A stretch of DNA of 64,000 nucleotides from contig RQSC01000308.1 in the NCBI GenBank assembly GCA_013416795.1, positions 1 to 64,000 on the forward strand, written 5' to 3'. A program made the translations under genes and the position numbers. Source of the DNA: Prasinococcaceae sp. CCMP 1430. Lineage: Eukaryota > Prasinodermophyta > Palmophyllophyceae > Prasinococcales > Prasinococcaceae. Of this stretch, positions 10,663-42,432 are shown piece after piece. The number at the start of each line of letters is the position of its first letter. The first letter of the stretch is position 1. The notes beneath the pieces are model-generated. The model saw only the letters and a program-made list of their open reading frames with translations, was not told the DNA's origin and searched no databases.

Positions 10663-13600
10663 TCAAGCGCCCCGCTGCTCGCGGTACTCCTGGATTTTGC
10701 GCTTGCGCCTGCCGGCCTTCTTCTCCGCGCGCCTGACCTTGCGGCGCGCGTCCGCCTGCGGGTCCAGCAGCGCGCCGAGTGCTCGCTTGCGCTTGCGCGC
10801 GGCCGCGGCGGCCTTCTTGCTGGCGCGCAGACCCGTCACCGCGTCGACGAATGCCTCCGAGCCAAGCACCTCCTGCAGCAGCGACTCCACCTCGCTGCTG
10901 AGCGAGCCAAGCACCTTGGCGAGCGCGGCGGAGGTGTTGTTTGCCGCCTCATATTCAGCCGCCTCCGCAGCCTCCTCCTCGGCCTCCTCGAAGACCTTGA
11001 GCGAGCGCTCCTTGTTCTTCTTGAAGCTGCGCTTGGCGATTTCTGCGGCCTCCTTTTCGGTGGCCGCCTTGGCAACGGTGCGCCCGCGCATGACGGGCTT
11101 GAGCAGGAGCTGCGCATTGGGCACGAGCGCCTCACGGTCCAGCGTGGCGGCCACTCCGGCGACTACCTCGAGCGCGTAGCGCACCTGCAAGTCTGCACCC
11201 TGCGCGGCCAGTCGAGCCACACGAGCCAGCATCCAGCCGAGCGCTGCGCCCACCGCACCGCCCGCGGCGGCCGCGGCAGCGCGCCCCTCATCCTCCTCCA
11301 CGTCCTCATCCTCGACCATCTCCTGCTCTTCGTACGCGTCGCCCTCGCCGTCGGCGACCGCGCCGAACATGGCGTCAGCTGCCACGGCTGGCGTTTCGTG
11401 CAGCAGCCTGGCGAGCGCGATCAGGTTCTTGACACCCTGCTCCGCCAGAGTGCCGCCCTCGACGTCCGTGGACACAGCGCGCAGCTGCGCGTCTGCGAGC
11501 GCGCGCAGCCGCGAGCACGGCGCGCTCCACGCGGCGGAGCGCAGGCGCAAGCCCAGCACGCGCGAGGCCGCCGAGCGCACCCATGTGTGCTGGTGCAGCA
11601 GCAAGCACGGAGCGCACGCGTCCGACCACAACGCCTCGCCCTGCGGAAGCGCCATGGTGCCCGCCGAGCGCGACACGAGCTTCTCCACCAGCAGCAGCGA
11701 AACGTACGCCTCCCGCCACCGTTCGGCGGCCGCGCCGTCGGCTGGCGACATGACGCGCTGCTCAGCCTCCTCGAGGATGGGTCGCAGCGACCTGCGCAGC
11801 GAGTCGACCGTCGGTTTGCTGTTCGACTCGAACATCTCTTGCGAGGCATCTGCAGCCAGGCTGAGAACCTGCATGCCAACGCAGCGAAGCTGCCAGTTGT
11901 CGCTGCCCATCAGCGAGCGCACGGCGGCGCCCAGAGAAGCGCGGCTGGCTGCGCTCGCGCGCGCGAGCATCACCCGCAGCGCAGCGCCAGAGGCGGCACG
12001 CGCGGCAGCGTCGGGGTCCTCGGTGAGGCGCTGCGCGAGCGGCGGCATCATCGCGGGAACCATCTCATCGAGCAGCTCTTGTGGCAACTGACCGGCCACA
12101 CCCTCCAGCGCGCGCGCAGCCGCCACCCTGCCCGTCGGATGCTCGTAGGTGAGGTTGACGAGCAGGAACTCAACGTGCTGGCGCAAGCGCTTGGGCCCAA
12201 GAGGATACTCGAGCAGGAACTGGATGAGCGCGCCGTGGCTCTGCTGGCGCACGCTTGCGTGCTGGCTCTTCACCAGCAGCTCTTGCACGCGTCCCATGAT
12301 GTCGTACACGCTGTCAATGACAACGCGCCGCCCAAGGATCACCCGCAGCAGGCGGAAGGTGGTCGCCTGCGTGGAAGAGTCCTCGATGTCGGTGAAGGAG
12401 CTCTCAAGCAGCGCGCGCAGTTGCGTGTCCGTGGCGTCCCAGCCGCAGTTGGTGTGAAGCAGCGACGTGAGGAGCTTGATGCACTCCTGAGAGAGCGCCG
12501 AAGTCGCCGAAACCCCGCCGCGCAAGAGTGACAACGAGCGCCGTGCAAGCTCCTGCGTATGCCCACGCAGGGTGGGCAGCGGGTAGCGGCACATGATTGC
12601 CAGACACTTGAGCGCCAACGTCACGACCGCGGTCGAGTGCTGCCGCATGCAGCGCGCGAGGACCGGCACGAATGGCGCGAGCAGTTCAAGGCGCGTGGGC
12701 TCCACATCGACCGTGGCCTCCTGCTCGCCGTCTTCTCCGCCGGCCGGCTCGCCAGCAGGAGTGCCTTCGACGCCAGTGCCCTCGTCCGCAGCGTCGGTCG
12801 CCCCCGCGCCGGCGGCGGGCCCAGCCGCGCCAGCTCGTGCACCGCCGCCTCCATGGTTCCGGCCGCGCCCCCCGCCGGTGCCGTGCTTGAGAAAGGTAAG
12901 CAGCATCTGGAGCGCGAACTCGGCTAGCATGGCTTCACCGCTGTTTTTCTTGCCCAGGACGGCGAGGCGTTGCTGCTCGCGCGGCGCCACGCGGCCCTCG
13001 CCGCCTGCTGAAGCGGCAGGCGCATGCGCGTCGAGCAGCGAGTGCACGAGCAGCAGCAGCTCCTGCGGGCTAGCAGTGCGGTTGGCCAAGAAGCCGCGCG
13101 CGAGAGCGCGCAGCATCTCCGCCACGCGCTCGCGCACGCGCGGCGATGTCGAACTCGGCACATAGGACGCGACGGCATCGACCAGACTGGACACAACCGC
13201 TGCGTCCGCACTGAAGTGCACGGAGCGCGCAAGGATGGCCAGCGAGTCGTACGAGCAACACTTGCGCGCCTCCTTGCCTTTTGAGGCGATTTTGCCCACC
13301 TTGCGCTCCTCCGCGGCCAAGCCCATCACGTCCTCGGCAAGGATGGGAACGAGTGGGTCCACACTGCTGTCCAGGTCACCAGGAGCAGTGCTCGGGTCTG
13401 CCGCGACGCGCTCGAGGATGGCGTGCAGCGTGTAGCCGAGCACGTGCAGCTGGTAACCCTTGCGCAGGCTCGTGCACAGCGCAGCGATGATCTGCGGCAT
13501 CTCTCGCGCGCCCACAACCCGCGCGACCCCGATCAGCGCCTCGCGCGCGCTGTCGCGGACGTCAGGCCCGTGGCTCGCGAGCGCATTGGAGGTGGTCTGG

Positions 13601-16600
13601 ATGGCCGCCGCGCGCACGTGTGTGAGCTTGTCGGCCTCCTCAGGCAGCGCCTGCACCACGCGAACGATGGCCATCACTATCGGAGCGCGCACCACACCGC
13701 CCTTGACGTCGTTGATGATGAGCGCCTGCAGACCCGGCAGCACGCCGCGCATGAGACCGGCGGCAATGGCGCCGCGCGGCGTGCCGCACGGCGGCGCCGC
13801 GAGCGGGTAGGCGCTGACGAGTGTCGCCACCGCGCCGACCTGCGCCGCGTCGCGCCTGCTCTTGCCGCCCCGGACGCCCCTCACCAATCGCATGAGCAGA
13901 GTGTGGAATCGCCCCCAGTGCATGCGCCCACACACAGCGCTCAGCGCAGCCACGGCAGCGGCCTTCATGTTGCCGTCCGAGCCGCTCTGCGAGTCTGACA
14001 GGATGCGCGCGCACATGGGCGCCCATAGCCCCGACAGCACGCCCTGCGAAAAGGTCGTCGTGTCCACGTTGCCCCCCTCGACGCCCTCGGACGCGGCGGC
14101 TTGCTGTTGCCTCGCGAGGGCTGTTTCGCCCTCGGCCATACCGCGGCACTCAGCTGCCAGCCGGTGCAGCGCTCGCACGCGCCTGTGTTGTTGCAGGTGG
14201 ACCATATTCAGAAAGAAATCCACCTCCTCATCGTCGCTCAGCAGGCAACGGAGCTGCGTGAATGGAGCGTACGGCAGCTCGAGCGCGCACAGGCGGAGCA
14301 GCGACAGGAACTCATTCTGTGCCTGTGGCGAACCTTTGCGAACAGCGTCCATAGCCGACGGCAGCACCGACGCGAGCATGACACTGTGTAGCGAGCGCCC
14401 AGCGACCGACGCGCTAGCGTTGCCATCAGCATTACCACCGACGTCCTCGCCCACACCATTCGCATCCTCCATGTCAGCGTTTTGACCTACGATTGCGTGA
14501 CCCTCGGGATCGGCAGCACACGCGTCTTCCACGCCTTGAGATGCACCGGCAGCCTTCACGAGCTCCGCCAGCGACGCGCTAGCACTCGCACGGACGGCCG
14601 TGTCGTTGGAGTTGAGGTCGAAGCACGCCTGGTGTGCGAGAGGCAGGACCGCCGCTGGCGCGAGCGAGGCGTATAGCTTGGTGTCCATTTTGCGGTACGC
14701 GCCGATGCGTGCGTCGTAGTCGGGCTCGTCGTCGATGCTTTCGGCGTCGTATGCATTCAGCGCTGCCAGCAGCTCACTGGCCGAGCGCAAGTCAGCGCCC
14801 GCTGCCGGCAGGCACGAGGCGCCGTCGAGCGCCGCCGCGAGCGCCGTGCGGCCCGCACGGTCGGAAATCATTGCAAGCAGGCGACACATGGGCGGCATGA
14901 CGTCGCGCAGGAGATCAGCCCCTGCGTTGGCATCAGCGTCTGAGCCCTTCGCGTGCTCGGCGCTTCGTTTGCACGCGGCAGCGACAACGTTGAGTGCTTC
15001 ACGCACGGTGGCAGAGCCAGCGGCACGCGCGGTCTTGCCAGCGGCCTGAAGTAGCGGCACAGCGGCGCATGCTGTTGCGGCGACATGCTCCGCAGGCATG
15101 CGCGCCGCGAGCGACGCGAGCACGGCGAGCTCACGCACGTACGCCTGGTCGCCACCTCGGCGCGACGCGTGTGCATTGTGCCCACCCGTGCTACTGTTGA
15201 CTGCCGCAGCCGCGCTGAGCCGCGTGCGTAGCTGATCAAGCAGCTGCGATAGCACAGGCTGCAGAAGCTCCGCGCCGAGCTCGCCACCGTCGTGCTCGAG
15301 CAACGCCTCAATGACTGCCAATGCCTCATCCTCGATGAACGCCTTCGAACGCGCCACGTTCACTCCACCCCTCCCTCCAGAAACCTTGCTACCATTGAGG
15401 TGCAAACAGTCTACAATGCGCGGGAGGACGTCCGCACCCTCGGACGCGCCAATGGTCAGGTGCCGCACAAGAGTTGGGTCGGCTGCCAGTGCCGCTGCCA
15501 GCTCAATGACTGGCGGGCACTGCGATCCCTCACCCGCCGCCGCGGTGGCGTCTATCGGCAGACGCACGATGGCATCTCCTGCCGCCGCGAGCAGTGAGTC
15601 GAGGAGCAGCGGCGAGAGCATCTGGGGTTGACGGCGAGCGACGAGCGCCACCAGGCGTAGACACGCCGCGCGACACGCGCGGATCGTTGGCCCGCCGCCG
15701 GCCATCGCAGGCGATGCCAGCTCCTGGTAGCAGCGCACCACAATTGCCATTAGGGCTTCTGTGTACCTCAGTAAGCCCATGCTGAGTGAGTCAAGCAGCG
15801 TGTTCATGAGTCCCAGCGTGCCCAGCAGGCGCTTGGGCTGCACAGCGCCCACCAGCTGAGCGCCCTGCAGCCCCTCAACGAAGGTGTCCCCGGCGTCGAC
15901 GAGCGTAAGCGCCCACGCCTCCCCCATCGCGCGTTGTGGCAGCGATTCGCGCGCCGCCTCGCCGCCAGTGCGCGCGAATGCCGCCGCGAATGGGCGAAGC
16001 AGCAACACCATCACGGGGAGCAGCTCCTCCGTGGAGAGTGAGCTGAAGGCGGTCAGCACGGCGGGCCTCGCCGTGCGCGCGCTCTTCTTCTTTCCCGATC
16101 CTCGGCCGCCCTGCTTGAGCCTCGGCCACATGGCGCGCACGAGCAACACGAGCAGGCAGGCGCGGTCGCTGTCCTCGATGGCACCGCCGCTCGCTCGTCG
16201 CTCGAGTGAGAAGCGCACGAGTTCTTCACGGATACTCGTCGGGTAGAGCATCTTGCGCACGTGCTCGGCGTACGGCACGAGCTCTGGGATCTCAAAGCGT
16301 CCCAAGGCGCCGAGCGCAAGCTCCTGCATCTTTGGCTCGTTGTCGCTCAGCAGCTCCTCCAGCGTGGCGCGGATGGCGCCCGCACGAGCGCTGCTACGCA
16401 ATTTCTTCAGACCACCGATGACGCGCAGCCATTCGCCGAGGCACTCACGCCAGCCACGTGCCGAATATGAGCGCAGGCGTGGCACCTGGCCGCCGTCTGC
16501 GCTGTCGCCAACTACGAACACCAGGAAGAGTTCGGGGATGCGCAGGCCGACCTTCGTCTCCTTGTCATCCTTGACGTTCAGTGACCGTGAGCCCACGATC

Positions 16601-19227
16601 TTGAGAAGCTGCACGACGTGTTTGGGTCCGCACACTGGCGCGTCGAGCTCGCCGCCATTAGCGCCTTCGCGCTCTGCCGCCAAATACAGCTCCTCGCTGC
16701 GCTCCCAAATGCTGGGTGGCAGCTGCTGCTCGACGCCTGCGGGCACAAGCTCCAATTCGTCGGCCTCGTGCTCCCTCTCCCCATCATCGCCCTCGCCATC
16801 CAGCGCGTCGAGTGCCGTGTCGCCAATGAGCTGCACATCGCCAGCGGGTTGACTCCCCTCCCCACCTTCGAGCTCCATCGCAGGAGCCGCGTCAGCGTCG
16901 TCCTCGATGTCCTCGAGCTCCTCACCAACGATGCCTTCTTGCATGAGGTCTGTCTGAGCGCGTTCGAGCTCATCCACAAGCGCCTCCCACCCAGCCGCAG
17001 GGCGCTTGTCGAGCAACGCCTCGTACGAAGTGGCCACTGTCGCCCACATGGGCGAGTAGCGCTGACGCAGCGCTCCTAGCATGAGGGCCGCAAGCGCCGC
17101 CGACAGCGTTTTCGGCAGCCGCCCCGAATTGACGCGTAGTGCCGAGCGTGACACCATTGGCGTGCGCTCGCGCCCGTTGGTAGGCGTCAGCGGGCTGCTA
17201 AACACCTCGAGCCAGTCCTCCAGAAGCGTGGTGTCGTGCGTGTCGTCGCCAGAGTCAGGCTGCTCGAACACACAAAGCGTACGCAGGGTCGCGCGACGCA
17301 GCGGCGCGCAGCCGCTCCGCAGATTGGAGAGCACCCCCGGCAGCCGTCTGCTGAACTCCTTCAGAGTAGTGGCAGCTGCGAGCTTCTTCGAGCCATCACG
17401 CCCCCCGACGCTCTCCGCGGCCATCGCAGAGAGCTCAAACGCGAAGGGGCAGTCGCCACGCCTGAATGCGAGCTCGATGAGGTCCACAACAATTGACTGG
17501 TGCGTGAGCTCCTTCAGGTCGAGATCTTTGGCAGCGTGTGCGATTGCCTCGTAACCCGTCTGAAGCAGCAAGCCAGCGGACGGCTCCTGATGCAGTTGAG
17601 CGAGCGCATCGGCCGTGCCGCGAATGAGCGCGCACAAGCGTTTTCGTTGCGTGTCACTGGTGACAACCCCGCGCCTCGTGAGCAGTGGCAGCGCGCGAAG
17701 TGCAGCCCATGCCCGCGCCTTGCTCGCAGAGTCACTGAAGGCTTGCGTGGGCGCTGCGTTGAGAGCAGCCACCCTCTGCTCGACGCATGCAGCGGCAACC
17801 TTGGGGAGTGGCAGGCCGCCTAGTCCGAAGTCGCGGTGCATGGCATTTGTGAGCGCAAGAAGCGCGTCCTCAGACCCCTCAGCACCGAGCTCCAACAGCC
17901 GTGTCACCAACTCGATAGCGAGCGGGCCGCTCGAGCGCAGCGCGGCGGCGTCCTGCAGACCGAGGAGTGCGATGGCGACGGGCTCGAGCGCTGCGGGGCC
18001 ACACCTCAGCAGCGGCTGTTTCCAGCGGGACGCCACATGAGCGGCGGCGAGCAGGACGGGCTGCGCGGGTGCGGCTGCTTGGCTAGCGCCGAGGCAAGCG
18101 CGCGCGAGGCGCGCGCACGCGGCCTCGAGCACCCCTGCGCCCTCCAAGCCCGCCTCCGCCATCGAGGCCGCACGCTGTAGCGCTTCGTCGCCCAGCTTGA
18201 GGAACGGCGCCAGGTCGTGACAGCGGACGCCGCGGTTGAACTCGAGGGCGGTGGCGGCAAACGCCACACACGACGCAGCGTACGTTGCCTCGCCGGAGGC
18301 ATCCGCCAAAGACGCCCTGGCGGCGTCCACCACCGCAACCCACAGCGGCGCGCCCGCCTTGGGGCTGATGCGCAGCCGCGCGAGAGCGCGCTCGGCGGCG
18401 GCGGCCATCGCCTCGCCACTCCTGCCCATGCCGCACACCTTGGGTCCCAGGAGCACGCGCACAAGCGCGGGCGCGCGGCTGTGTAGGCCTTGCTGCACGC
18501 CCGCCATAGCTTCGCTCACCAGCGCGCCAGCTGCATCGGCCTCAAGCTGCCCCCCCTTGCGACACTCCTTTCGCAACGAGTGTAGCGCTGCAGCGAGCTG
18601 CTCCTGCGGCGCCGAACGCACGAGGAACGCGAGCGCTCCCGCCGCAAACATGCGAATTTCCACGCGGGGATGGAGGCGCAGCGGCGCAGCCGCGCCGATG
18701 ACATCGGCCAGCATGCGCGTGAGCCACCGCCGCAGGTACTTGAACACGAAGCTCAAAGCGGTGAAGGCCGCCTCGACGGCACGCGGGTCTGCGGCCGTCT
18801 CCGAGACGTTGGGCCCACGGCGGTCCGCGACGAGCTCACCGCAGCGCGCGAGCATCGCCGGCACGTGCGGCACGAAGTCGGACTGCAGGTCACGCGCGAG
18901 CATGGCCAGCAGGCTCAGCGCCGGCTCGGGGCACGCGCCCTCATCGGCCTCCGATGCGGGCACACGCACGCGCGCGAGCAGGTCCTCGGCTATCGCATCT
19001 CTGTGGTGCACCACCGACGGGAGCGTGCGGCAGCGTGGCAGCAGCTCGTCGGCGAGCGCCTTGTACGCGGCGCTCACATCGAGCTCTTCCCACTGCGCCA
19101 GTCCCTCCTGTATGAAGCTCTCCGCGCCGTGAGCCGGCTCGTCCCGCACCGGCCCCAGCCGGCGGTACACGTCGACCTCGACGGTGCGTAGCCGCGCCGC
19201 GAACGAGCGGTGGCGGAAGCGGCGCAC
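10663..19227 (-). CDS. UTP20: UTP20/DRIM, small-subunit processome HEAT-repeat protein
   Basis: Huge HEAT-repeat scaffold of the nucleolar SSU processome, needed for 18S rRNA maturation. The frame encodes about 2,850 residues, close to the roughly 2,785 of human UTP20, with no intron over 8.5 kb. Identity rests on the N-terminal pattern RSFAARLRTVEVDVYRRLG, then LARDLQSDF, FKYLRRWL and RMFAAGALAFLVR, which match the family's first HEAT units, and on the basic C-terminal tail RKRKIQEYREQRGA. The codon at 19225-19227 is GTG, and no in-frame ATG exists before an upstream stop at 19486. The true start must therefore be in a short upstream exon or be non-ATG. The many open frames on the other strand are shadows. 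Confidence 0.9.
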   Translation of the reverse strand: MRRFRHRSFAARLRTVEVDVYRRLGPVRDEPAHGAESFIQEGLAQWEELDVSAAYKALADELLPRCRTLPSVVHHRDAIAEDLLARVRVPASEADEGACPEPALSLLAMLARDLQSDFVPHVPAMLARCGELVADRRGPNVSETAADPRAVEAAFTALSFVFKYLRRWLTRMLADVIGAAAPLRLHPRVEIRMFAAGALAFLVRSAPQEQLAAALHSLRKECRKGGQLEADAAGALVSEAMAGVQQGLHSRAPALVRVLLGPKVCGMGRSGEAMAAAAERALARLRISPKAGAPLWVAVVDAARASLADASGEATYAASCVAFAATALEFNRGVRCHDLAPFLKLGDEALQRAASMAEAGLEGAGVLEAACARLARACLGASQAAAPAQPVLLAAAHVASRWKQPLLRCGPAALEPVAIALLGLQDAAALRSSGPLAIELVTRLLELGAEGSEDALLALTNAMHRDFGLGGLPLPKVAAACVEQRVAALNAAPTQAFSDSASKARAWAALRALPLLTRRGVVTSDTQRKRLCALIRGTADALAQLHQEPSAGLLLQTGYEAIAHAAKDLDLKELTHQSIVVDLIELAFRRGDCPFAFELSAMAAESVGGRDGSKKLAAATTLKEFSRRLPGVLSNLRSGCAPLRRATLRTLCVFEQPDSGDDTHDTTLLEDWLEVFSSPLTPTNGRERTPMVSRSALRVNSGRLPKTLSAALAALMLGALRQRYSPMWATVATSYEALLDKRPAAGWEALVDELERAQTDLMQEGIVGEELEDIEDDADAAPAMELEGGEGSQPAGDVQLIGDTALDALDGEGDDGEREHEADELELVPAGVEQQLPPSIWERSEELYLAAEREGANGGELDAPVCGPKHVVQLLKIVGSRSLNVKDDKETKVGLRIPELFLVFVVGDSADGGQVPRLRSYSARGWRECLGEWLRVIGGLKKLRSSARAGAIRATLEELLSDNEPKMQELALGALGRFEIPELVPYAEHVRKMLYPTSIREELVRFSLERRASGGAIEDSDRACLLVLLVRAMWPRLKQGGRGSGKKKSARTARPAVLTAFSSLSTEELLPVMVLLLRPFAAAFARTGGEAARESLPQRAMGEAWALTLVDAGDTFVEGLQGAQLVGAVQPKRLLGTLGLMNTLLDSLSMGLLRYTEALMAIVVRCYQELASPAMAGGGPTIRACRAACLRLVALVARRQPQMLSPLLLDSLLAAAGDAIVRLPIDATAAAGEGSQCPPVIELAAALAADPTLVRHLTIGASEGADVLPRIVDCLHLNGSKVSGGRGGVNVARSKAFIEDEALAVIEALLEHDGGELGAELLQPVLSQLLDQLRTRLSAAAAVNSSTGGHNAHASRRGGDQAYVRELAVLASLAARMPAEHVAATACAAVPLLQAAGKTARAAGSATVREALNVVAAACKRSAEHAKGSDADANAGADLLRDVMPPMCRLLAMISDRAGRTALAAALDGASCLPAAGADLRSASELLAALNAYDAESIDDEPDYDARIGAYRKMDTKLYASLAPAAVLPLAHQACFDLNSNDTAVRASASASLAELVKAAGASQGVEDACAADPEGHAIVGQNADMEDANGVGEDVGGNADGNASASVAGRSLHSVMLASVLPSAMDAVRKGSPQAQNEFLSLLRLCALELPYAPFTQLRCLLSDDEEVDFFLNMVHLQQHRRVRALHRLAAECRGMAEGETALARQQQAAASEGVEGGNVDTTTFSQGVLSGLWAPMCARILSDSQSGSDGNMKAAAVAALSAVCGRMHWGRFHTLLMRLVRGVRGGKSRRDAAQVGAVATLVSAYPLAAPPCGTPRGAIAAGLMRGVLPGLQALIINDVKGGVVRAPIVMAIVRVVQALPEEADKLTHVRAAAIQTTSNALASHGPDVRDSAREALIGVARVVGAREMPQIIAALCTSLRKGYQLHVLGYTLHAILERVAADPSTAPGDLDSSVDPLVPILAEDVMGLAAEERKVGKIASKGKEARKCCSYDSLAILARSVHFSADAAVVSSLVDAVASYVPSSTSPRVRERVAEMLRALARGFLANRTASPQELLLLVHSLLDAHAPAASAGGEGRVAPREQQRLAVLGKKNSGEAMLAEFALQMLLTFLKHGTGGGRGRNHGGGGARAGAAGPAAGAGATDAADEGTGVEGTPAGEPAGGEDGEQEATVDVEPTRLELLAPFVPVLARCMRQHSTAVVTLALKCLAIMCRYPLPTLRGHTQELARRSLSLLRGGVSATSALSQECIKLLTSLLHTNCGWDATDTQLRALLESSFTDIEDSSTQATTFRLLRVILGRRVVIDSVYDIMGRVQELLVKSQHASVRQQSHGALIQFLLEYPLGPKRLRQHVEFLLVNLTYEHPTGRVAAARALEGVAGQLPQELLDEMVPAMMPPLAQRLTEDPDAAARAASGAALRVMLARASAASRASLGAAVRSLMGSDNWQLRCVGMQVLSLAADASQEMFESNSKPTVDSLRRSLRPILEEAEQRVMSPADGAAAERWREAYVSLLLVEKLVSRSAGTMALPQGEALWSDACAPCLLLHQHTWVRSAASRVLGLRLRSAAWSAPCSRLRALADAQLRAVSTDVEGGTLAEQGVKNLIALARLLHETPAVAADAMFGAVADGEGDAYEEQEMVEDEDVEEDEGRAAAAAAGGAVGAALGWMLARVARLAAQGADLQVRYALEVVAGVAATLDREALVPNAQLLLKPVMRGRTVAKAATEKEAAEIAKRSFKKNKERSLKVFEEAEEEAAEAAEYEAANNTSAALAKVLGSLSSEVESLLQEVLGSEAFVDAVTGLRASKKAAAAARKRKRALGALLDPQADARRKVRRAEKKAGRRKRKIQEYREQRGA

Positions 19228-19973
19228 GCGCGCCCGTGGCGCGCCCGCGGCCAGCGCCGCGTCCGCCTCAGCGCGACCGCGGCCGCGGCTGCGGCCGCTC
19301 GCACCCCCTGCCCTCCCCCCCCCGCTAGCGCAGCAGAGGAGGGTCCTCCCCTCAGAGCCCAGGCCTGCCTCTCTCCTGCTCTCACGGAGGGGCCCCTCTC
19401 CCCCTCCCGCGGCAGGCGCCGCGCCCCCCCGGCGGCGTGGGGTGTGGCGTCGGCGGCTGCGGGCAGCGCCCGGCGGCGGCGGCGGCTATAGCCGCCGCTT
19501 GCCGCCGCCCGCTCGGAACCCACTCGGAACCCGCAACGCAAATGCGGAATCCTAATGGAATCCATAATCACTTGTCACGTCCGTCGCTGCGGCGTAGGCG
19601 CGCCGGCGTGCGGGGATTCCGCCACACCGGCCCATCAAAAAGCGTACGGACACAAAAAAACATTTCGGTGAGAATTTCCACCCAAAAAAGAGTGGGCGCG
19701 CTCCGCTCCCCTTGGAGAACGCCATCACCCTTTTTTTTTGTGCGGGGTCGGCGCGCTTGTCGATGTTTTAGGGTTTGACCCTAACCATCCGGAGGTGGCG
19801 GCCTTTCGACCTTTGTGCCAACAGGATGGCATTCAAAAGATCGATGGTTGGGTTTGGGTTTTGAGTGTCGCGACGTGGCCGCCACAGCGCGCGCACGCGC
19901 GCGCCTGCGTGAGGAGGGAGGGGGTGAGGGCAGAGGGCGACGAGGAGCGGGCGGCGGCGTTCGTCGGACAGCG
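19228..19973. other. Divergent promoter region, UTP20 / CIA2
   Basis: GC-rich near UTP20, then AT-richer (about 19500-19860) with A and T runs. The UTP20 start exon probably lies here. A perfect plant-type telo-box sequence is at 19768-19776, immediately followed by GACCCTAACC, giving an imperfect inverted pair. Confidence 0.5.
19768..19776 (+). promoter_or_regulatory. Telo-box-like motif TTAGGGTTT
   Basis: The complement of AAACCCTAA, the plant telo box found in promoters of ribosome-biogenesis and translation genes. Here it sits between UTP20 (ribosome biogenesis) and CIA2. Function in this organism is inference from position and sequence only. Confidence 0.35.
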
Positions 19974-36512: not shown

Positions 36513-36529
36513 GAGCGGCGGCGGGCAGC

Positions 36530-37840
36530 ATGCCCGCCGCGCCGCGGCTGCTGCCGTCGGCGCCGCCGGCGGGCGAAGCAGGCGCGTGGGAGGAGGTCGC
36601 CGGAGGCGGCGTGACCGAGCCTGCGGGATTCTCCGCGGCTGGCGTCGCCGCGGGGCTGCGGTCGAGCGGCAAGCGCGAGGACCTCTCGCTCGTGCTCTCT
36701 GATCGCCCCGCCGCAGGGGCGGGCTGCTTCACGCAGAACCGCGTGTGCGCCGCGCCCGTCACGTACTGCAAGCAGGCGCTCGAAGCGATGGGCTACGAGG
36801 GCGTGCGCGCGGTGCTCACCAATGCGGGTCAGGCCAACGCCGCCACCGGCGAGCAGGGGTGGGAGGACTCGCTCTCCGGCGCGCAGGCCGCTGCCGACGC
36901 GCTTGGCGTGCCCCGCGACGCCGTCATGGTGATGAGCACGGGCGTCATCGGCCAGCGCATCAAGATGGAGCCCTACCTGGCGTCCATCCCGGACGCGGTG
37001 GCCGCGCTGGGCAGCTCGGCCGAGCATGGCACCGCCGCTGCGGAGGCCATCACGACCACTGATCTCGCGCGCAAGCAGGTGGCCGTGCGCGTCTCCCTGC
37101 CCTCGGGCGGCTCCGTCAGCATCGGCGGCATGGCCAAGGGCTCCGGCATGATCCATCCCAACATGGCGACAATGCTGGGCGTGGTGACCACCGACGCGGC
37201 CGTGGCGCCTGAGGCGTGGCGCAAGATGCTGCGCGCCGCCGTCGCGCGCTCCTACAACCAAATTACCGTCGACGGCGACACCTCGACCAACGACACGGTC
37301 ATTGGCCTCGCCAACGGCGCGGCGGCCGAGGGCGGCGTGCAGCCGATCTCCGACGCGGACAGTGCCGACGGAGCGGCGCTCACGGCTGCGCTCACCGCGG
37401 TGTGCGAGGCTCTGGCCAAGTCAATCGCGTGGGACGGCGAGGGCGCGACGGTGCTCATCGAGGCGAGCGTCACGGGCGCCGCCAGTGACGCCGACGCGCG
37501 CGAGATCGCCAAGTCGGTGTGCGGTTCGAGCCTGGTGAAGAGCGCGGTGTACGGTCGCGATCCCAACTGGGGCCGCATCGCCGCGGCTGCGGGGTACGCT
37601 GGTGTGGAATTCGACCAGGCGGACCTGTCCGTTTGGCTGGGCGAGGCGCAGCTCATGAGCCGCGGCCAGCCGCTCGAATTCGACGAGTCGGCCGCAAGCA
37701 AGTACATGGCTGACGCGGGCGACTGCCGCGGCACCGTGCGCATCGGCGTGCGCGTGGGCGACGGCAGCGGCTCGGGCAAGGCGTGGGGATGCGATCTGAG
37801 CTACGACTATGTCAAAATCAACGCCGAGTATACGACGTAG
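36530..37840 (+). CDS. argJ: ArgJ, glutamate N-acetyltransferase / ornithine acetyltransferase
   Basis: Recycles the acetyl group in arginine synthesis by moving it from N-acetylornithine to glutamate. The 436-residue frame is intronless. The enzyme cleaves itself into two chains at an Ala-Thr bond, and the Thr nucleophile is visible in KGSGMIHPNMATMLG (about 37138-37176). Other landmarks are QNRVCAAPV, TNAGQANAATG, STGVIGQ, the oxyanion region, DGDTSTNDT and GRDPNWGRI. The end KINAEYTT is the family's usual short C-terminus. About 20 residues before the conserved core are Ala/Pro-rich and too short for a clear transit peptide, so an upstream targeting exon is possible. Convergent with the DsbD-like gene, 103 bp between stops. 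Confidence 0.95.
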   Translation: MPAAPRLLPSAPPAGEAGAWEEVAGGGVTEPAGFSAAGVAAGLRSSGKREDLSLVLSDRPAAGAGCFTQNRVCAAPVTYCKQALEAMGYEGVRAVLTNAGQANAATGEQGWEDSLSGAQAAADALGVPRDAVMVMSTGVIGQRIKMEPYLASIPDAVAALGSSAEHGTAAAEAITTTDLARKQVAVRVSLPSGGSVSIGGMAKGSGMIHPNMATMLGVVTTDAAVAPEAWRKMLRAAVARSYNQITVDGDTSTNDTVIGLANGAAAEGGVQPISDADSADGAALTAALTAVCEALAKSIAWDGEGATVLIEASVTGAASDADAREIAKSVCGSSLVKSAVYGRDPNWGRIAAAAGYAGVEFDQADLSVWLGEAQLMSRGQPLEFDESAASKYMADAGDCRGTVRIGVRVGDGSGSGKAWGCDLSYDYVKINAEYTT

Positions 37841-37943: not shown

Positions 37944-40532
37944 TCAGAGGATGAGGCTGACGGCGCACCCCACAGCGGCGTAGGTGAACGCGATGCCCGC
38001 GGCATAGCACAGCGCGCGGAGGACCACGCCCATCCGCCCCACGTTGCCGCTGCCCGCGAAGAGCGCCAGCGTGGTGGGCACCAAGGGGTACACACATGGG
38101 CTCAGGGACGCCAGCAGCCCCCAGGGATAGCACAGCATCACTGTGATCGCTCGCTCTGTGGGCGACGCCTTGCCGCAGTCATCAGGCGAGTCCGCCTGCG
38201 GCGTGCCAGACGCGTGTCCGCGCAGGGGTCAGCAGACGCGAGCATGCGAGCGTCAGCGTGCGCGCGCGGCGCAAGCGGTGGCGCTGGCAGGGACGCACCT
38301 CCGGATCGAGCCCCTTTGCCGCGCGCTCGAGCACCTCGTTCAGCCTCGCAGCCGACAGCTTGCCACGCAGCACCGTCTCTGGTGGTGTGCGGCGCAGATC
38401 GCCTTCACCCGCTGCCATGGTGGTCGCTCGCACAATCACGTACGCCGGCATGCCCCCCGCGCCCCATATCTGATCCTTCAGGGTCGCGCATTCGCTCTGC
38501 CTGTTCGTGGAGTCACACTTGACGCTAACAAAGTCGGCGTCCAGCGTGGAGACGACATCGGCGTCCGCCAGCGTCGTGTAATCGGCGAAGCGGCAGGTCA
38601 CGCACCAGTCAGCGTAAAAATCTACAAAGAGCCCCTTTCCAGCCTCGACAGCGCTTTGCGCGCCCTCGTGCGGGTCAGGCTCCCACGCAATGGCGCTCGG
38701 GGGCGGATCCAGCAGCCGTCCGGGTGCGCGCGAGAATGGCTCCCCTGTGACAGCAAAGCCCCACACGGCAAAGAATGCAACAACGCATGCGATGAGCAGC
38801 GCGGCGGAAGAGAGGAGCGACCGCGCCGTGAGCTCTCGACGGCGCAGCACGGGCAGGCGGCGCTGCCACTTTCGCGGCCTCGTGGCCTCAAGAGCGATCA
38901 TCTCGTCCAGCGGGAGCTCCTCGACCGCGACCCTCCGCAGCAGCGCGCTGCACACAATGAAGACAGCCCAGGCGCCGAAGGAAGTGGCCATCGCGGCGAA
39001 GGCCAGCGTCGCACCGCCGTCCGTGCTCACCAAGAAGTAGGCCGCGCTGATGAGCACGATGAAGCCTGAGTGCACCTTCAGCCTGTCGAGCCACGGACCA
39101 GGCTCGGGCAATCGCGTCACCAGTCCGCTGGCGACGGCCGCGAGAAGCAGTATCGTCGCCAGGCCCATCCCAAAGAGGAACAGCCCCGCCGCGCCCACCA
39201 CGTAGTCGCGCGAGGTGGCGACATACACAAGCACGGAGGCGGCGAAGGGCCCCACGCAGGGCGAGACCACCAGACCGAATGTACAGCCGCGCGCCAGCGC
39301 ACCGAGATAGGTGACGCCGGGCTGTTCGGGGGATCGCTGGGAGCGCGCTTTGGAGACGTCGCCCGCCTGTTCAACGTCCTCTGTGTCCGCCTTGACGCCT
39401 CCTCCCGCGGTAGCCGCGCCCTGTCCCGGGACCAGCCTTTTGAGGATGAAGTTGGGGACCTTGAGGTCGAACAGGCCCCACATTGACAATGCCATGAGAA
39501 TGAGGATGGAAAGAACCACACCCAGCACGGCTGGCTGCGCGAGCACTTGGCCGACGTCCGCTGAGCGCGCGCAGCTCTCAAAAGTGCCGATGCCGTCATC
39601 GCGGCTGACGTCACCGCCAGGCAGCCCGCTACCAGCGTCGCCGCCCTCGTCACCCACGCCAAGCAGTGCGCTCAGATTGCCAGAGCGCGTGGCCAGCTCA
39701 TACGCCTCCAACTCAGAAAGAGTCGCCACGCGAGTGAGATCGGCGTGGATGTCGTACGCAGGCACGCCCGGCGTATCCAGGAGGTACTGGTGCCAGCACA
39801 AATTTGGGCTGCACGAGGAGAAGGCAACCTCCAGAGGCAGCGTGAGCGTTGCGGCCAAAAGGTCGTCTGTGGCATCGGAGACGTTCGCGGGAGCAGCGGC
39901 CATGGTGCTGGACGCATTGACGACGGCCGCTGCGCGCGTGCACATGCGCGTCAACTCGTCAGTCGGGAGTAGAGCGCGCGACGCTTGTTCGCACGTACCG
40001 CGAAATGAAGTTGAGAGCGCGCGTGCATGCGGACGAGCGCGCGGCAACACACACCTCGGAGCTCATCGACGTCTGCAACCTCGCCCACGAGTACCCCAAC
40101 CACCTGTCCGGGTCCCTTGTACTTCGTCGCGTCATAGCTGAAAAAGCGACTCTCGAAGCGCTCCACCAGGGGTAACGGGAAGGTGGCGAGCGCATCAGCC
40201 AGGCCCGCATCGCCGTATGCAGGCGCTCCGATGCGCGCGGCGCGGGCTTCGGTATACGAGTAGCACTGCGGCGCCTCCTCGTTGGAGCAGTCACGTGGCC
40301 CGTAAATGTGGCAGCCCTGCGGCATGCGTAGCCGCACCCACGCCACCACGCGCGCCGCGCCGCCGCTCTCCGAAGCAGCGTAGTATGCGCCGCCGCCATC
40401 GGCGGCCGTCACGCACTCGGCCTCGGCCTCGTACGGTTCGTAGCCCTCTTCGGAGCAGGCGCGCTGCGCCAGCACCGCAGCTAGCACGAACGCCAGCGCC
40501 GCGCATCGCGCGGGCATGCGCGCGCACCGCAT
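37944..40532 (-). CDS. DsbD-like transmembrane thiol:disulfide interchange protein with permuted membrane segments
   Basis: Exons 40532-40055, 39929-38299 and 38195-37944 join in phase (1, 0) to 786 residues. Order: signal peptide (ALAFVLAAVLAQRACS); a DsbD-alpha-like domain whose Cys pair is in SSCSPNLCW (about residue 200); helices equal to DsbD TM3 onward (QPAVLGVVLSILILMALSMWG, then SPCVGPF with the second membrane Cys near 381); a thioredoxin-like domain with WCVTC (about 598); and last, SPCVYPLVPTTLALFAGSG plus one more helix, which equal DsbD TM1-TM2 and normally come before TM3. All redox cysteines are kept but the order is changed. Both introns have GTGYGT donors and CTGAC. DsbD moves electrons across a membrane to reduce extracytoplasmic thiols; location (ER or plastid) is uncertain. 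Confidence 0.85.
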
Positions 40533-41154
40533 GACCGCGCCGCGCCGCGCCAGCGCCAGCGCCGCCGCCGCGCTGCTACGCCACGCGCATGGCGTGTGCC
40601 TCGCCACACGCGCACGCGCGCGCGCGCGTGGCACGCACCCGGCGCTTCGGGGAATCCCTTAACCCCCTTAAGGGGTGCACCCGTTTTCGACCGGAGAAGC
40701 CGCAAAACTGAACCGGATTAAGCCATACTTGTAACCCGGTGACATGCGTTTCGATCCGGGTCTACGCGCGGGGCGAGTAATTGCAATTTGCTCGCGCGTT
40801 CCCCAAGCGTGCGGACTCGGCACGGCACTGGAGGGCAGGCGCCCCCTCCCGCCTCCCGCCCCCCACTGCCCGCTCTCCTCCAGCGCGGCGCACCGTTCGA
40901 CCCAATCCTCGCGCGCGCCCAGCGATCCGACGGCCAGGCGCGCGCGGCCCCTCCCAGTGCGTGGCGCGCTCGCAGCACAGAGCGCGCACGCGCGCGGGCT
41001 GCCGCCCACCGCTGCCTGGCGCGCGTGGGCGCGTGCTCCTCCTCTCCCCCTTCTGCCCTTGCGTGTGCGCGGTCGCGCCGTCGCAGCGGCGGTGGTTTCG
41101 ACGGCGATAGGCGCTGCGGTGATACGCGCGCGGCGACTGCCACGCTTGGCACAC
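40533..41154. other. Divergent promoter region, DsbD-like / WW protein
   Basis: Contains a CG-dinucleotide run (about 40612-40630) and a perfect 12-bp palindrome CCCCTTAAGGGG at 40664-40675. The plus-strand frame is open from 40744, but its Arg/Pro-rich content looks non-coding. Confidence 0.45.
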
Positions 41155-42432
41155 ATGTCGGAGGTCGAGGGGTGTCCTGGTTGGTGGGAGTACGAGTCAG
41201 AGGAAGGCGTCCCGTACTTTTTCAACGACGAGACCGAGGAGACGCGCTGGGAGCACCCCTCGCTCGCGGGCGACGGCGGGAGGGTGGCGGGTGACAGCGG
41301 TGGTAATGAAAGCGGTGGCGAGCATGCGCTCGACTTGAGCGGTGCTGTAGCGGGGTCTGAGACGCAGCCGCGAGCGCAAGAGGATGAGTGGGTAGTGGGC
41401 GATGGCGGCGACGGTGGCAGCAGCAGCGGCGATGGCGATGACAAGATGACACAGTTCAAACAGGCTGTCGGCATGCTCAAGTCGCGCGGCGTCTTTGGTG
41501 GCGTCCGGACAGAAGAAATGCGGAGCATTAAGCCCACGCGCAACCGCTTGAGCTCACAATTTTCCGAGTCGAGGGCCATGCTTGCCAAGCTGGGCATCCT
41601 CGACGCGCCCAGTGGCACGGCGGCGCGCGCGGAGATCGAGCAGCGCGTTCCAAACGCTATCACGGAGGAAGACGAGTACGCAGAGAAACCAAAGGGCGAC
41701 GAGGAGCAGGAAATGCCCGTGATCACAGAGGGATTCCGAGACGATGAGGAGGTGGACGCGTTGTCAGCGGTGAAGGCCTCGTCCGCGGCGGAGGCTTCCC
41801 CAGCGCCGGCCACCACCGCCACGTCTAACGTCACCAAGTGGGAGCCCATCGGCGTGGAGGCTGTGTCATTTATTTGCTTCGACGTCGACGAGCGCACGGT
41901 CACAATGCCAATGTGGGCGGCAGGCACCCATGGCAATCTGCAGGTGGGCATGGTGGTGCTCGCCTGGGAGGGCCTGGTGACGTGGGGCCCCACCTCCAAC
42001 GATCCTTTCCTGATCCCCTACGAGAACATGGTCATGTGGACGCTCGACCCGACCGATGCTGCGCTCGACATCACCATGGAAGGCACCTTCGATCCCACGG
42101 CACGGAAGCTGAAACTGCTCACTGGCGAGGTCATCGATCTGCGCGTGTGCCTGCCCACGCCCACCGTGGCCTTCGAGCTCTACAAGTCGCTGAAGGAGGT
42201 GTGCACGCGCGTGGGCAAGGAGAAGCGTGCGCAGCTCGATAAGGAGGCGCTCAGGAGGACCAAGCTGATGGCGGACAAGGTCAAGACACTCGCACTGGCA
42301 GGCATGTCGGGCCGCCAGCGACGTTTGTCCGTCAACGTGAGCGCAAGCGACGCCGCTGCTGACGACGTCGCCGTCGCTGTCAATCAGGCCGCCATACTAA
42401 AGCAGGCCAGGCGGCAGCTCAACGGACAGTGA
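41155..42432 (+). CDS. WW-domain protein with conserved C-terminal domain
   Basis: 425 residues from ATG 41155. A WW domain opens the protein: WWEYESEEGVPYFFN...RWEHP, with both Trp and the central aromatic pair, so it should bind proline-rich ligands. An acidic, Gly/Ser-rich linker follows. The C-terminal part (about 41830-42240) reads as a compact domain (FDVDERTVTMPMW, VVLAWEGLVTWGP, FDPTARKLKLLTGEVIDLRV). A basic helix (EKRAQLDKEALRRTKLMADKVK) ends it. The alternation of strands recalls a PH- or GRAM-like fold, but I cannot name the family. The longer frame upstream lacks a credible start. Convergent with NAA40. Confidence 0.75.
   Translation: MSEVEGCPGWWEYESEEGVPYFFNDETEETRWEHPSLAGDGGRVAGDSGGNESGGEHALDLSGAVAGSETQPRAQEDEWVVGDGGDGGSSSGDGDDKMTQFKQAVGMLKSRGVFGGVRTEEMRSIKPTRNRLSSQFSESRAMLAKLGILDAPSGTAARAEIEQRVPNAITEEDEYAEKPKGDEEQEMPVITEGFRDDEEVDALSAVKASSAAEASPAPATTATSNVTKWEPIGVEAVSFICFDVDERTVTMPMWAAGTHGNLQVGMVVLAWEGLVTWGPTSNDPFLIPYENMVMWTLDPTDAALDITMEGTFDPTARKLKLLTGEVIDLRVCLPTPTVAFELYKSLKEVCTRVGKEKRAQLDKEALRRTKLMADKVKTLALAGMSGRQRRLSVNVSASDAAADDVAVAVNQAAILKQARRQLNGQ

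Follow-up and report, generated by a model that had tools for sequence, protein, structure and literature searches.

A Predicted Circularly Permuted DsbD-Type Disulfide Reductant Carrier in Prasinococcaceae sp. CCMP 1430

Introduction

Among the closest known counterparts of the protein reported here is bacterial DsbD, with which it has in common an N-terminal lumenal domain with a CX4-5C motif, eight transmembrane helices with one cysteine in TM1 and another in TM4, and a thioredoxin domain with a CXXC motif. In DsbD and CcdA, the TM1 and TM4 cysteines accept electrons from cytosolic thioredoxin. CcdA is unpermuted and has neither a fused alpha domain nor a fused thioredoxin domain; the likeness to our protein lies in the six-helix core, and the C-terminus of P0002, a relative described below, matches residues 5–60 of CcdA 5vkv (E 0.013). 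Carriers of the ScsB/TsoB type have the same domain content, and P0120, named by its source as suppressor for copper-sensitivity B, is among the matches listed in our protein search, but the relatives that were found have the standard order.

A circular permutation of helix order also separates two families of membrane disulfide carriers in the oxidative arm, VKOR and DsbB, and PMC4555120 presents that case as the first report to relate distant helical membrane proteins in this way. In that case two distant four-helix families are compared, whereas here the permutation falls within one recognizable domain family and concerns a reductive carrier.

Here we describe a gene in a window of 64,000 nucleotides, the whole stretch of DNA that was analyzed (contig RQSC01000308.1, positions 1 to 64,000). 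A first-pass annotation had proposed that its product is a natural permutation of a DsbD-type carrier, with TM1-TM2 moved behind the thioredoxin domain. This proposal is upheld by P0002, which evidently comes from another species and is permuted too. We consider it quite probable that the locus is a nuclear gene of an alga, probably a green one, and that it encodes a transmembrane carrier of disulfide reductant, of the DsbD type, with a circular permutation in the module formed by the membrane part and the thioredoxin domain. The carrier differs from bacterial DsbD in the position of TM1-TM2, in an alpha domain that DsbD_N does not recognize, and in being encoded by a eukaryotic gene with predicted introns.

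Gene Model and Splicing

Judged from reading frames and splice signals, positions 40532–37944 of the minus strand form a three-exon gene of 786 residues free of internal stops (Table 1). The splicing was inferred from the fit to P0002, because many GT-AG pairs leave the frame open (at least 20 frame-preserving pairs for intron 1 and at least 23 for intron 2, among those listed). Without splicing, the exon 2 frame hits a stop at 38182. The joined product of exons 2 and 3 matches P0002 over the junction with a length difference of 2 residues; the last exon (38195–37944), as the first-pass annotation had it, joins in phase 0 with the splice signals that it described, and the whole reads as one protein. 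For intron 1, the acceptor at 39867 is closer to P0002 in length than the one at 39930 and drops 21 residues including two sequons, and it may be the true acceptor.

GC content is 63–71% in 4-kb steps across the window. The assembly, of 24.5 Mb, has 22 LHC-domain matches and a partial match to the RuBisCO small subunit (32 of 97 positions) in sequence of 67% GC, which suggests that rbcS is nuclear, as in the green line. The gene has a convergent neighbor of the ArgJ family (36515–37840, plus strand; PF01960, E 6e-144), and roughly 100 bases separate the end of that frame from the stop codon of our gene. Upstream lies a divergent open frame (40735–42432, plus strand) whose match to the WW domain stays below threshold (23.8 bits; cut-off 26.9). 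Elsewhere in the window, 10663–19485 of the minus strand hold a reading frame of 2940 codons without interruption.

Table 1. Features of the permuted gene and its predicted product, in window coordinates.
Feature	Coordinates	Strand	Remarks
Exon 1	40055..40532	-	Start codon, signal-peptide-like N-terminus (~1-28), first part of alpha-like lumenal domain; aligns with P0002 residues 4-161
Intron 1	39930..40054	-	GT...AG, 125 nt; alternative acceptor 39867
Exon 2	38299..39929	-	Remaining alpha-like domain, TM3-TM8, thioredoxin domain; aligns with P0002 residues 152-665
Intron 2	38196..38298	-	GAG|GTGCGT ... CCGCAG|GC, 103 nt, phase 0
Exon 3	37944..38195	-	Linker, TM1-TM2, stop codon; aligns with P0002 residues 660-750, 60%
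CSPNLC (residues 199-204), CX4C of alpha-like domain	39796..39813	-	Where DsbD-alpha has its active site
TM3, MALSMWGLFDL motif	39472..39528	-	Profiles and hydropathy
TM4, SPCVGP, predicted shuttle cysteine C384	39217..39300	-	Profiles and hydropathy
TM5-TM8 and loops	38749..39201	-	TM7-TM8 loop arginine-rich, predicted cytosolic
Thioredoxin (gamma) core, WCVTC	38428..38631	-	PF13899 (Thioredoxin_7), E 8.9e-12, above the Pfam cut-off
TM1, SPCVYPLVP, predicted shuttle cysteine C737	38082..38159	-	Placed after the thioredoxin domain
TM2, C-terminal helix	37947..38027	-	Last segment of the protein

Domain Order of the Predicted Protein

The order along the predicted chain is signal peptide, alpha-like domain (CX4C), TM3-TM8, thioredoxin domain (WCVTC), TM1-TM2 (SPCVYPLVP) and stop, and motifs, hydropathy and the split DsbD_TM profile bear out both this order and the cysteines that had been read at first pass. 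By hydropathy, the chain has a hydrophobic segment at its N-terminus, six helices within residues 294–553 and a C-terminal pair within 720–786, with no extra helix between the N-terminal segment and TM3. The DsbD_TM profile (PF02683) has 219 positions and a family cut-off of 27.1 bits. On exon 2 it matches with positions 72–115 and 114–215 (86.5 bits, above the cut-off), and on the exon-3 frame with positions of about 4–69 (E 2.3e-8, 34 bits, also above it). The pieces 114–215 and 4–69 each exceed the cut-off alone, while the piece 72–115 (24.8 bits) does so only jointly with its neighbor. The profile is thus met in the order 72–215 and then 4–69, with one copy of each in the contig (C81), as in a circular permutation, and a search with DsbD_TM gave no second TM1-2 stretch among those scored in the contig. 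A sub-profile for TM1-2 matches residues 721–784 (E 2e-14, reckoned for 300 sequences), and the thioredoxin sub-profile matches ahead of it, at residues 593–660. In both the window protein and P0002 the chain ends right behind TM2, and the alpha-like domain lies outside the rotated module, having kept its N-terminal position.

One candidate for a degenerate TM1 ahead of TM3 was rejected: MAFFT paired the TM1 motif of another relative (P0003) with DTPGVPALG of P0002, and we read this pairing as chance because the matching stretch of the window protein has no hydropathy peak.

The predicted protein therefore has the membrane features of DsbD, namely a DsbD_TM match above the cut-off and a cysteine in TM1 and in TM4, together with the gamma feature, a thioredoxin fold with CXXC. 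It departs from DsbD in order, which is TM3-6, thioredoxin, TM1-2 in both the window protein and P0002 in place of alpha, TM1-8, gamma. The scores of NCBIfam NF001419 (DsbD) stay below the cut-off of 330 bits, with 133.9 for P0002, 113 for exon 2 and 30.7 for exon 3; this model scores a permuted protein in pieces and so is not independent of the order. The TsoB model, whose cut-off is 805 bits, gives 134.8. Both its order and its NCBIfam scores place the carrier outside DsbD proper.

Relatives with the Same Order

A protein search with query residues 200–786 gave 124 proteins from 7999 scored candidates, of which the best 120 were listed. Among them was P0002 (ENA source), a protein of 750 residues that is 60% identical over the entire searched region, with the same rearranged order and the same TM1-TM2 end; a search of the predicted protein, one of the checks proposed at first pass, thus turned up a second case. 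Its source is evidently a different species, as judged from its identity, and P0002 itself is probably a single unspliced reading frame. Compared exon by exon with the window protein, it is identical at 83 of 148 aligned residues (exon 1), 321 of 498 (exon 2) and 50 of 83 (exon 3), so the relocated part appears about as well conserved as the rest of the protein. Within the membrane, 47 of 70 residues are identical in TM1-2 and 77 of 105 in TM4-6. Compared with the genome, P0002 falls into three adjacent, collinear stretches at this locus (its residues 4–161, 152–665 and 660–750), and it has no other match in the genome among the candidates scored.

The other close relative, P0001, is 99% identical, begins within intron 1 and continues across intron 2 as far as the stop at 38182. 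Evidently this record is a frame that was not spliced, from this species or a very closely related one, and it lacks TM1-2 because its frame ends in the intron read-through. Two further searches with parts of P0002 (8000 candidates scored in each) returned 3 and 2 proteins and no third permuted relative, and a scan of viral contigs for P0002 DNA gave 14 pattern matches and zero relatives.

Order of Parts across DsbD Relatives

To place this order within the family, we scored 122 proteins, the 121 found among the matches listed and the window protein, with sub-profiles built from 119 other proteins, drawn from the first search and from the further search that returned 3 (119 rows for TM1-2, 119 for TM3-6, 118 for thioredoxin and 112 for alpha). 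All 119 other relatives among the matches listed have the standard order TM1-2, TM3-6, thioredoxin; these reference proteins match the sub-profiles by construction, but their order was not imposed. They are bacterial wherever the source names them, most being unnamed. The permuted order TM3-6, thioredoxin, TM1-2 occurs in both of the full-length algal-type proteins, the window protein and P0002.

A genome scan gave a similar result for bacteria. By the best-scoring match per profile, 78 of the best 80 bacterial loci have the standard order, and the remaining two (L031, L083) have no TM1-2 match, their matches beginning near the end of the stored DNA. Counting by first match instead gives 76 of 80, owing to weak overlapping TM3-6 matches ahead of TM1-2 in L027 and L085. 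The permuted order was found in none of the 119 other relatives and in none of the best 80 bacterial loci.

The three algal-type rows group together (100/100) in a tree of 99 rows, where they sit on a long branch next to 86 others. The tree is rooted at the midpoint, and the program warned that long branches meet at the algal-type clade, so it does not allow a bacterial donor to be identified.

Alpha-Like Domain, Cysteines and Structure Models

The CX4C motif of the alpha-like domain is retained in P0002 as CSKDVC, and four more cysteines of the domain are common to the two proteins. In hhalign, the pairing with the bacterial alpha motif covers the CX4C stretch alone and has a probability of 1.3%; Pfam DsbD_N (PF11412) has no match in the window pieces or in P0002, and the alpha sub-profile does not match the domain at E 0.01. 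The domain shows strands in both structure models, at low confidence. Its tie to DsbD_N is weak.

Both membrane cysteines of the shuttle pair that had been recognized at first pass, C737 in TM1 and C384 in TM4, are retained and are present in P0002 too, as are those of WCVTC and CX4C. Two further conserved cysteines are predicted to be lumenal, C279 directly ahead of TM3 and C710 directly ahead of TM1 (in P0002, C241 and C671). A disulfide between C279 and C710, across the new junction, might staple the relocated hairpin beside TM3, which is a guess.

Two models of P0002 were made. The first, which has no alignment depth at TM1-2, has a mean pLDDT of 60.2. The second, for which TM1-2 and everything from inside TM4 to the end drew on bacterial pieces picked after alignment trials, has a mean pLDDT of 58.4; block means rise to 70–84 in TM1-2 and fall in TM3, the membrane part as a whole being of moderate confidence and ranging from 44 to 84 with TM3 at the low end. 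Matches of the models in the PDB are to the thioredoxin domain only, including DsbD-gamma structures, with plain thioredoxins and UAS domains scoring level with DsbD-gamma. The thioredoxin domain is secure, but the structure matches do not distinguish DsbD-gamma among thioredoxin folds.

Topology

In ordinary DsbD, the helices and the thioredoxin domain have the same orientations as predicted here. The first-pass annotation had expected the rearrangement to put TM1-TM2 and the thioredoxin domain in a new topology, and on this point it is not supported: the hairpin has moved from one lumenal position to another, and since an even number of helices was relocated between the two, all predicted orientations are as in ordinary DsbD. 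If the alpha-like domain is lumenal, the six helices TM3-TM8 lead to a lumenal thioredoxin domain, after which TM1-TM2 would traverse the membrane and return. The distribution of lysine and arginine, counted in flanks of up to 15 residues, agrees with this, being 15 of 90 on predicted cytosolic and 5 of 55 on predicted lumenal sides in the window protein, and 17 of 91 and 3 of 54, respectively, in P0002. The predicted cytosolic loops TM3-TM4 and TM7-TM8 are 57 and 40 residues long, a further point of difference from bacterial DsbD. The predicted novelty is one of connectivity, not of topology, in that the thioredoxin domain would be tethered at both ends and TM2 would form the C-terminus.

Proposed Mechanism and Alternative Explanations

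We hypothesize that the module [TM1-2][TM3-8][Trx] became [TM3-8][Trx][TM1-2] behind an unmoved N-terminal signal peptide and alpha-like domain, possibly by tandem duplication of the module and subsequent loss of the first TM1-2 and of the last TM3-Trx. By analogy, the protein is most likely a cytosol-to-lumen disulfide-reducing relay that works like DsbD. Cytosolic thioredoxin would reduce the TM1/TM4 cysteine pair (C737, C384), the pair would hand electrons to the lumenal thioredoxin domain (WCVTC), and this domain might pass them to the CX4C of the alpha-like domain and from there to lumenal or secreted clients. The relocated TM1-TM2 hairpin, with its orientation kept, should retake its usual place in the helix bundle.

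The order of parts might instead have arisen through misassembly, or because a downstream exon that does not belong to the gene was attached, given that the assembly is a draft in 145 contigs and that the splicing is predicted. However, an identical event would then be needed in P0002, an independent record, 60% identical, that shares both the order and the C-terminal end; moreover, scoring brought up no second TM1-2 stretch in the contig and no further genome match of P0002. We regard such an artefact as extremely improbable. Almost as improbable is a split carrier, in which TM1-TM2 would be translated on its own from an ATG at residue 723 (MLCYPWGLL...) and the resulting small protein would associate with a truncated DsbD. 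This ATG does lie in exon 3 near the start of TM1, and unspliced exon 2 reaches the stop at 38182, where the P0001 record also ends. Yet P0001 looks like an unspliced frame, with its start also inside intron 1, whereas P0002 has both parts in one chain of 750 residues, and the spliced linker is within 2 residues of the P0002 linker in length, with its cysteine kept. Loss of electron transport, leaving a lumenal thioredoxin anchored by leftover helices, is conceivable insofar as a permutation might disturb the bundle; the proline-cysteine membrane stretches, both cysteines included, are conserved at or above average relative to P0002, and we hold this loss to be very unlikely.

Each of the two proteins has an N-terminus of about 28–38 residues that is signal-peptide-like by eye, and that of the window protein is hydrophobic by hydropathy. 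Sequons (N-X-S/T) before TM3 number 4 in P0002 against a mean of 0.41 in shuffles (P 5e-5), and 3 in the window protein against a shuffle mean of 0.56 (P 0.012), although use of the acceptor at 39867 would remove two of these three. These features suggest that the protein probably resides in the secretory pathway, in the ER or a membrane derived from it. The same permuted carrier might instead sit in the thylakoid of the plastid and supply the lumen with reductant by a second route, alongside CcdA. To our knowledge, the known eukaryotic DsbD_TM proteins are plastid CcdA, and the N-terminus of P0002, with its AAAQA site, is also readable as a lumen-targeting signal. Against a plastid location stand the shortness and signal-peptide-like look of both N-termini, the sequon enrichment before TM3 and the CcdA-like protein that the genome already has, with which the permuted protein is not needed for the CcdA role, and we consider this location unlikely. 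The CcdA-like protein in question (L005, positions 1513–2532, contig C89) is the only other DsbD_TM protein scored in the genome; it has the standard order by eye and is probably plastid CcdA.

As for the secretory pathway, we put forward tentatively, and with somewhat more doubt than confidence, a fuller proposal in which the protein would be a eukaryotic secretory-pathway DsbD with a permuted core, conveying reductant from cytosolic thioredoxin into the ER, a task for which such a membrane protein has been postulated; the C279-C710 disulfide may hold the hairpin in place.

Implications

Taken together, the sequences indicate that the permutation of this DsbD-type carrier is genuine and common to two evidently different species. 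Natural circular permutation is seldom reported in helical membrane proteins, and no report of a permuted DsbD was found among the titles and abstract starts listed in searches of the open-licence PMC literature; in PMC7197872, "permut" refers to a statistical test. The presence of a permuted DsbD in two such species suggests that the core tolerates a cut between TM2 and TM3 together with the attachment of TM1-TM2 behind the thioredoxin domain. This tolerance bears on the elevator movement of TM1 and TM4 that is postulated for CcdA (PMC7329351).

A DsbD-like apparatus in eukaryotes has been raised as a possibility (PMC4109312), and the mammalian membrane protein for a reductant route into the ER is described as unknown in PMC7197872. 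If the permuted carrier does reside in the secretory pathway, it would be a concrete candidate for bringing reductant into the ER in the manner of DsbD.
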